Assembly: GCF_011302055.1 (NCBI RefSeq)
Contig: NZ_CP049871.1
Location: forward strand, 888,501-952,500
Length of the DNA: 64,000 nucleotides
Source: Sphingomonas sinipercae
Lineage (GTDB): Bacteria > Pseudomonadota > Alphaproteobacteria > Sphingomonadales > Sphingomonadaceae
Direction: 5' to 3'
The notes under the pieces were generated by a model. The model was not told the DNA's origin. It saw only the letters and a program-made list of their open reading frames with translations, and did no database searches. This document shows positions 47,654-48,893 of this stretch, piece by piece (the first letter of the stretch is position 1; the number at the start of each line of letters is the position of its first letter). Both the position numbers and the translations under genes were made by a program.

Positions 47654-47866
47654 TCATGGGACGGGGTCGAAACCTTGGCCGCCCCAGGGATTGCAGCGAA
47701 GGATTCGCTTCAAGGCAAGCCAGCTGCCCTTGGCCGCCCCGTAGCGCGTCCAGGCAGTGATCGCATAGGCCGAACAACTCGGCTGGAAGCGGCAGCTTGG
47801 CGGGAGCACCTGGCTCGGGCCCTTCTGCCAGCCGCGGGCGACCAGGATCAAAAGCCGGCTGATCAC
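47654..47866 (-). CDS. yidD: Membrane protein insertion efficiency factor YidD
   Basis: 70 aa from GTG at 47866, overlapping the rnpA stop (GTGA). It has the family core: a membrane-associated helix RLLILVARGWQKG, SQVLPPSCRFQPSCSAYA with three Cys, and GSWLALKRILRCNPWG. It supports YidC-dependent insertion and is short as usual for the family. Confidence 0.95.
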   Translation of the reverse strand: MISRLLILVARGWQKGPSQVLPPSCRFQPSCSAYAITAWTRYGAAKGSWLALKRILRCNPWGGQGFDPVP

Positions 47867-48336
47867 GGTGCGACCCGCTGCAAGGCGCGGGTTAGGTCTT
47901 CGCGAAGCAGGCCGAAGTCGCGTTCGATGCCGCTGCTGCGACCGATCATCACATGGTCGGAGCCATCGAAGCCGCGCGCCGGGAGAATTTCGCGGGCAAG
48001 CGCCCGGAAACGCCGCTTCATGCGGTTGCGAACGACGGCGTTGCCGATTTTCTTGGTGACGGTGAACCCGACGCGCTTGGCCGAATCGCCGTCCTTGCGG
48101 TCGCGGACCAGAAGCACGAAGCCAGCAGTCGCCGCTCGCCGGCCCGAGTTGGCGGCGAGGAAATCGGCGCGTTGCTTGAGGATCGAAGGGAAGGCTAGGC
48201 GCTGAGCTTGTTGCGGCCGCGGTTGCGGCGCGCATTCAGGACCTTGCGACCGCCGACCGTCGCCATGCGCGCGCGGAAGCCGTGGCGGCGTGCGCGGACC
48301 AGGTTGCTCGGTTGAAAGGTGCGCTTCATCGCTCAT
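47863..48336 (-). CDS. rnpA: RNase P protein subunit, with rpmH nested in its 5' part
   Basis: RNase P protein, 157 aa if begun at the ATG at 48336. The folded core is the last 100 residues: [24 protein letters not shown], and the RNR motif [19 protein letters not shown]. No ATG, GTG or TTG lies in this frame between 48336 and the strand GFVLLV, so either translation starts at 48336, seven bases before rpmH, reading through the whole of rpmH in another frame, or it uses a rare start such as ATC near the core. AAGG precedes both starts. Confidence 0.85.
48195..48329 (-). CDS. rpmH: 50S ribosomal protein L34
   Basis: 44 aa, too short for a 60-residue cut but plainly real: it begins [18 protein letters not shown] and ends NRGRNKLSA, with the family sequence [15 protein letters not shown]. 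It is wholly inside the rnpA frame, in a different reading frame. AAGGG lies nine bases upstream of its ATG, an ideal distance. Confidence 0.97.
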
Positions 48337-48340
48337 GCCC

Positions 48341-48359
48341 TTGAAAACTTGATTTTCAA
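48341..48359 (-). promoter_or_regulatory. Hairpin at the rpmH/rnpA ribosome-binding site
   Basis: Perfect seven-base arms TTGAAAA/TTTTCAA around a five-base loop. On the minus strand it ends inside the AAGGG that serves rpmH (48338-48342). It could tune translation of both L34 and RnpA by partly hiding the site. Confidence 0.4.
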
Positions 48360-48425
48360 AAATGAAAAGGGCCGCCGTTGGGCAGCCGCTGTCGGTCGCG
48401 CCAGTAGGGCAGGCGACCCGCGAAG

Positions 48426-48757
48426 TCAATCATTACAGGGCTCGCTGGGTAGCTGTTGCTGGCTCTCCCGACGCTTCTGCATTTCCTTGCGCCGCTGCGC
48501 GCTCTTCCGGCGCAGCGCCCAGTCGCCCCAGCGGCCCGCCAGCGGCTGCCAGCGCTTGACCCGCACGTAATTGCGCTTCGCCCACATGCTGGTCTTCAGG
48601 ATCAGCGCCAGCCCGGGGCGATGAAAAAGACCCCGCCGGGCCCGGGAAGCGGCGAAATGATGATCCCGATGATGACGAGGATGATGCCGAAGATGAACAG
48701 CAAAGTCTCGCCAAGCGGCGAGTCGAAAAATGCGCTGAACCGGCTTCGGCGAGTCAT
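48426..48757 (-). pseudogene. PGPGW-type membrane protein, broken by a one-base frameshift
   Basis: The first half begins near the ATG at 48757 (MTRRSRFSAFFDSPLGE), with one helix LLFIFGIILVIIGIIISPLPGPGG, the PGPGW-family signature. At about 48612-48617 the frame is lost: the read gives APGWR then stop, but skipping one base restores APGLALILKTSMWAKRNYVRVK, RWQPLAGRWGDWALRR and a stop at 48426. The C-rich/G-rich run CCCCGGG there could be a true deletion or a read error. Alternative start ATG is at 48766. Function of the family is unknown. Confidence 0.72.
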
Positions 48758-48893
48758 GCCTTTCATGTGGTCGAGCGATGCCCCGCTCGCAAGGGCGCTT
48801 GCGGAAGAACCGTTCCGCGGGCTAGCCGTGCGATGCCGAGCTAGGGGGACAGTTGCGTGCTTGCGAATGGCTGATTGAGCGGGGGCGGCCCTG

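Follow-up and report, generated by a model that had tools for sequence, protein, structure and literature searches.

The rpmH-rnpA locus of Sphingomonas sinipercae raises the question of where the RNase P protein, RnpA, starts when no usual start codon lies close to its conserved core. The window, that is the whole stretch of 64,000 nucleotides that was analysed, belongs to a host genome of a single contig of 2.07 Mb, and the features described here all lie on its minus strand. A preliminary description had pointed out that no ATG, GTG or TTG occurs in the rnpA frame from 48336 to the RnpA core, and that the ATG at 48336 stands seven bases ahead of the rpmH ATG and reads through all of rpmH; both points were confirmed in the sequence. 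Moreover, 23 bases separate the end of the rpmH stop codon (48197-48195) from the codons for the conserved R-A-D-F motif, leaving little room for a separate rnpA start. The nesting of rpmH in rnpA that was first proposed from these features is supported by comparative evidence, which favours it.

The rpmH gene (48195..48329) encodes ribosomal protein L34 of 44 amino acids and was placed by the open reading frame listing and by profile matches. Its product matches TIGR01030 and PF00468 across residues 1-44, above the curated cut-offs of both profiles (80.4 versus 37.65 bits and 79.8 versus 25 bits, respectively). The extended form of rnpA proposed here (47863..48336) encodes 157 amino acids followed by a stop codon and wholly contains rpmH in another frame; profile matches and a frame that is kept in relatives argue for it. 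Its proposed start codon, to which relatives also point, is the ATG at 48334..48336, and the two start codons of the locus are arranged ATG AGCG ATG, 7 bases apart. Relative to rpmH, RnpA is read in the -1 frame and extends beyond the rpmH stop; its frame ends with a stop at 47863 and is open upstream past 48336, the open reading frame being listed from a TTG at 48429. The 157-residue product begins MSDEAH and is matched by PF00825 and TIGR00188, the matches beginning at residue 52-53 of the protein and position 6-7 of the profiles and again exceeding the curated cut-offs (72.1 versus 22.3 bits and 58.4 versus 38.35 bits, respectively). Codons 1-51 (48184..48336) would form an extension that overlaps rpmH together with its stop codon. 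Since R-A-D-F begins at residue 56 and the profiles match from 52-53, the earlier estimate of about 55 additional RnpA residues is a fair one.

For the comparison with relatives, dropping duplicates brought the collection from 289 to 255 loci; the counts leave out 13 loci for which the script located no RnpA core, and also L156, a false core match. The main set comprises 170 unique loci, none of them fetched with the extended protein, and a subset without the loci fetched by the pattern at -7 (seven bases ahead of the rpmH ATG) comprises 127 loci, 31 of them of the own genus. Loci L032-L111, which were fetched with the extended protein, were left out of the counts of frames, start codons, core-near starts, stop avoidance (main rows) and four-fold sites. 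They were included in the counts of the promoter element and the hairpin and in the alignment used for structure prediction. The tree set takes in 15 of these loci and is nearer to one row per genus than the main set. The way in which the collection was fetched enriched it for -7 start codons, and it is also enriched for the own genus. Its totals should therefore not be read as frequencies, for which only the genus, family and class genome samples were used.

An ATG is present at -7 in 76 of the 170 loci, and RnpA is in the frame of this ATG in 75 of them. Stops in the extended frame of relatives had been named as a finding that would speak against nesting; the frame is open throughout, into RnpA, in 74 of the 76 loci. 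By comparison, RnpA is spread over the three frames (27/22/31) in the 80 loci with a non-start codon at -7, and is in frame and open in 10 of these. The remaining 14 loci have TTG at -7, in frame and open in 5 of 9 cases, or GTG, in 4 of 5. In the 127-locus subset, 40 of 41 ATG loci are in frame and open versus 10 of 80 loci with a non-start codon. The bases between the two ATGs vary among relatives (AGCG, AACG, ACCA, ACCG, TCCG). The five GTG loci all belong to one genus, with RnpA in frame in five and open in four; because of their downstream starts they were not counted as nested. A count of ATG at -7 in 76/81 nested and 0/89 other loci was dropped as circular, the ATG being part of the definition of the nested class.

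The converse test took loci that were chosen blind to position -7, with an RnpA frame open through rpmH and no ATG, GTG or TTG from -4 to the core. Position -7 is ATG in 63 and TTG in 5 of these 71 loci, and no other offset between -31 and -3 carries an ATG in more than 4 of them. The same position is ATG in 36/43 and TTG in 4/43 of the loci of the 127-locus subset. Three loci that are in frame, open and start-less have no start codon at -7 (L206, L210 and L248). An in-frame ATG is found at -25 in L210 and at -22 in L248, and the three loci are possibly nested with another start spacing.

An open frame was rejected as evidence when taken alone, since rpmH is open in that frame in 58 of 75 non-nested sphingomonads. 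This openness by chance would suit a reading in which the -7 ATG is kept as a decoy start or as a tuner of L34 initiation, with the open frame arising incidentally from high G+C content and L34 codon usage, as would the Shine-Dalgarno-like site that the ATG adjoins. Nevertheless, a decoy or tuner leaves unexplained why RnpA is in the frame of the ATG in 75 of the 76 carriers and why starts near the core are scarcer in ATG carriers. It must also face the count of 0/82 for ATG at -7 among the class-sample genomes with the rpmH pattern outside the family, and we regard it as very improbable. In these comparisons, it is the combination of the -7 start codon and the RnpA frame, and not the open frame alone, that goes beyond chance; the start codon, the frame and the co-occurrence of both are supported at the level of sequence.

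Starts close to the core differ between the classes as well. An ATG, GTG or TTG no more than 24 codons before the core is found in 11 of 79 nested loci versus 67 of the 79 others whose core was located. In this count seven loci fall in neither class (L254, L140 and the five GTG loci), five have no located core, and other families contributed 7 of the 84 other loci. The contrast is weaker in the tree set than in the main set (15 of 46 ATG carriers versus 38 of 49 others), and the 15 ATG carriers, about a third, could initiate at the core-near start, which slightly lowers the confidence in the nested start. A Shine-Dalgarno match near the core does not discriminate, being found in 8/79 nested loci versus before 9/67 core-near starts of the others.

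The scarcity of such matches is one point that would fit a start of RnpA at a rare codon, perhaps by re-initiation after rpmH, in which case the ATG at 48336 would be irrelevant: core-near starts elsewhere are mostly without a Shine-Dalgarno site, so that coupling could be usual. Non-AUG codons that might serve do exist in the window, namely ATC at 48183, CTC at 48180 and CTA at 48198, the last of them overlapping the rpmH stop. In addition, the range of the script holds no ATG, GTG or TTG ahead of the core in two non-nested loci, L198 and L203, which perhaps use a non-standard start. However, the nested loci share no common codon near the core. An internal ATC or CTC start had been named beforehand as the result to look for against nesting, and no single non-AUG codon is conserved there in the 79 nested loci, which carry ATC (19), CTT (19), CTG (14), CTC (13) or others three codons before R-x-D-F. 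A rare-codon start would also leave the -7 start codon and the frame relation unexplained, and it appears quite unlikely.

Two loci are exceptional among those with an ATG at -7. L013, of the same genus, has the -7 ATG and a frame open through rpmH, but RnpA lies farther downstream in another frame, with a GTG ahead of its core. L254 has kept the -7 ATG, and its spacer holds extra sequence and a stop that closes the nested frame, with an ATG ahead of the core; the insert reads like what we take to be a dispersed repeat of these bacteria. Judged from their sequences, both look like cases in which the nested start was lost and another start is used. Separately, RnpA can be read in two frames in L197, which suggests a frameshift or a sequencing error inside the gene.

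The spacer between the two conserved regions gives a further view of the frame. Measured between the rpmH stop and the R-N motif of RnpA, this spacer takes 14 different lengths among the 74 nested ATG loci, 155 to 248 bases, and every one of them leaves the same remainder on division by three. On a tree built from YidC, the 47 nested taxa have 13 spacer lengths and require no fewer than 25 changes of length, each by a multiple of three, and the remainders of the 35 non-nested taxa are distributed 10, 13 and 12. As the nested label includes the frame, the fair figure for the spacer frame is that RnpA is in frame in 46/46 ATG carriers of the tree set. Taken together, the sequences make it very probable that rnpA starts at the ATG at 48336 and encloses all of rpmH in a different frame; the two genes would share one mRNA and one initiation region.

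Selection on rpmH was examined at third codon positions. Of the sites at which a T would create a stop in the RnpA frame, 0 of 487 carry it in the 82 nested genes, as against 24 of 420 in the 75 others (Fisher p 6.6e-9, a nominal value as the sequences are related). At other third positions, T makes up 16.9% in nested genes versus 26.2% in others. L184, L269 and L279, in which the script found no core, were read by eye as nested and used in this analysis. Avoidance of stops in nested rpmH is clear. Synonymous-site constraint had been suggested as a check on the overlap, and it is borne out in stop avoidance; other constraint is not clearly indicated by entropy or by four-fold differences. Third-position entropy of rpmH is 1.07 in nested versus 1.12 in other loci, with no clear added constraint. 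At four-fold sites, with RnpA distance matched, the two classes show similar differences in the middle bins. Nested loci have the lower values in the smallest distance bin (0.243 versus 0.431; 30 and 192 pairs) and in the largest (0.489 versus 0.603; 55 and 247 pairs).

The same positions bear on a fusion of L34 and RnpA through frameshifting near the end of rpmH. Such a fusion would agree with RnpA being in the -1 frame relative to rpmH and running past the rpmH stop. Yet most third positions at the end of rpmH vary and a fusion would have no need for the -7 ATG, and we find it hardly credible.

Across the 79 nested loci, the extension has a high content of Pro, Ala, Arg and Gln. It is predicted to be disordered, with a pLDDT of 47-58 in this block versus 93-97 in the core (alignment of 50 sequences). 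The roughly 51 extra residues, which may be present in mature RnpA, would be tolerated as a predicted disordered, stop-free and otherwise little constrained segment. In Thermus, an extended RnpA with relaxed constraint and in-frame indels has reportedly been described.

How the two starts would be used is suggested by the only Shine-Dalgarno-like site ahead of both. The single AAGG site noted earlier was found as AAGGG (48338..48342), with a spacing of 1 base to the start codon of rnpA and of 8 bases to that of rpmH. A Shine-Dalgarno match of at least 4 bases is present in 65 of 79 nested loci, with an aligned spacing of -3 to 3 to the first ATG and hence of 4 to 10 to the second. The two genes would be translated from one mRNA through one shared initiation region, in which the position of AAGGG suits the L34 ATG and is poor for the ATG of RnpA. 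With spacings of 8 and 1, most ribosomes would start on L34 and a minority on RnpA. The cell needs more L34 than RnpA, which fits initiation in favour of L34. The outputs of L34 and RNase P would in this way be coupled, and their ratio set by the competing starts. A search of the literature for ribosome profiling in Sphingomonas gave nothing usable.

The nesting of rpmH in rnpA in Thermus (Feltens et al. 2003, PNAS 100:5724) is the only described case according to a 2022 paper (PMC9841429), by whose account the L34 gene lies wholly inside rnpA, with the starts 5'-AUGGAUG-3' at an offset of 4 and one Shine-Dalgarno site. The sphingomonad locus, known here from its sequence, is alike in having the L34 gene fully within rnpA, a close pair of AUGs and one Shine-Dalgarno site. 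If rnpA starts first in Thermus, the frame relation is also the same, offsets 4 and 7 both leaving remainder 1. The likeness to Thermus drawn at the outset stands for nesting, the -1 frame and the shared site, and fails for the start offset, which is 7 (ATG-N4-ATG) and not 4 (AUGGAUG). An ATG at -4 was found in 0 of 81 nested loci. A candidate for an offset of 4 came from the class sample, in which 1 of 337 genomes has an ATG at -4; it was rejected, RnpA being in another frame there. The sphingomonads also differ from Thermus in being Alphaproteobacteria in which many genera have the arrangement, with related genera and single genomes that lack it. In the ordinary rpmH-rnpA arrangement of other sphingomonads and other Alphaproteobacteria, the gene order is the same as here, and RnpA may follow the rpmH stop in any of the frames and usually has a start codon of its own. 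No paper on rpmH/rnpA nesting in sphingomonads was found among open-licence full texts, judged by titles and the beginnings of abstracts.

The genome samples show how widely the -7 start codon is distributed. In the own genus, the rpmH start pattern was found in 67 of 71 genomes and ATG at -7 in 66 of the 67, the 67th (G028, locus L003) having TTG. In the family sample, the pattern was found in 243 of 249 genomes, 84 of which, from 33 of 96 genera, have ATG (70), TTG (9) or GTG (5) at -7. In the class sample, 87 of 337 genomes have the pattern and two have a -7 ATG, both of the sphingomonad family; none was found in the 82 pattern-bearing genomes outside the family, which suggests an origin independent of Thermus. 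Species of Sphingomonas and Sphingobium are among the named nested loci, which belong to the set fetched with the extended protein. In the tree built from YidC, Sphingomonas rhizophila (L041) and S. hankyongi (L032) are the rows nearest to the window.

On this tree, the nested state changes at least five times, on early and late branches, and one large clade has mostly separate rpmH and rnpA genes without nesting. With 95 rows, a quick method and 28 weak forks, gain and loss are not distinguishable on it; an early gain of nesting followed by several losses is plausible. The tree yields only four well-supported independent contrasts (on starred branches), a number too small for significance, and the test on them was not significant. 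We tentatively propose a wider scenario, with somewhat less than an even chance of being right in full. Nesting would have arisen early in the sphingomonad family, independently of Thermus, and would have been kept as a device that sets the ratio of L34 to RnpA through competing AUGs 7 bases apart at one Shine-Dalgarno site. The extension would be a passive by-product, and several lineages would have become un-nested through a start near the core.

Close pairs of start codons are also known from Escherichia coli, in which pqiA, tamA and narQ have ambiguous start sites of the type AUGUG or GUGUG, and the same paper leaves open the cellular expression of the short second frame of pqiA (PMC9841429). 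These sites, as presented there, resemble the sphingomonad pair in having adjacent start codons in different frames that compete for initiation. Unlike pqiA, both sphingomonad frames encode members of conserved families, RnpA and L34. The layout is known, but its start spacing, its distant group and its broad distribution are new. A second, distant nested group, with many genera and with sister lineages without the overlap, turns the arrangement from a curiosity into a comparative system. It opens ways to study how ribosomes are divided between two AUGs at one Shine-Dalgarno site, whether production of the ribosome is coupled to that of RNase P and how complete gene overlaps come and go. Annotated RnpA starts in these genomes may also be wrong.

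Upstream of both genes, a promoter-like element, TTGACT-N17-TACTGG (48401..48429), emerged from an alignment of 18 loci; a generic promoter scan found no promoter and did not list the TTGACT-N17 element, which is known from the alignment. TTGAC is present within -170..-20 in 148/148 nested loci (L032-L111 included) and in 90/91 others. Between this element and the start codons lies a GC-rich hairpin followed by CTTTT (48370..48387). A similar hairpin was found in 132/149 nested loci (L032-L111 included) and in 52/91 others, with 13/149 and 11/91 in shuffled controls (one mononucleotide shuffle each), and in 180 loci the median distance between the starts of TTGAC and of the hairpin is 42 bases. 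Since the hairpin also occurs in non-nested loci, it would be part of the rpmH leader rather than of the overlap. The hairpin and T-run of this leader resemble a promoter-proximal attenuator. An Rfam search of the leader gave one sub-threshold match (E 0.096), on the opposite strand, and no literature pairing rpmH with an attenuator was found. The gene upstream of rpmH (about 48426-48800, minus strand) encodes a membrane protein with a PGPGG stretch and is split by a frame change, which may be real or a sequencing error. This gene is in one frame in L032, L034, L039, L041 and L016.
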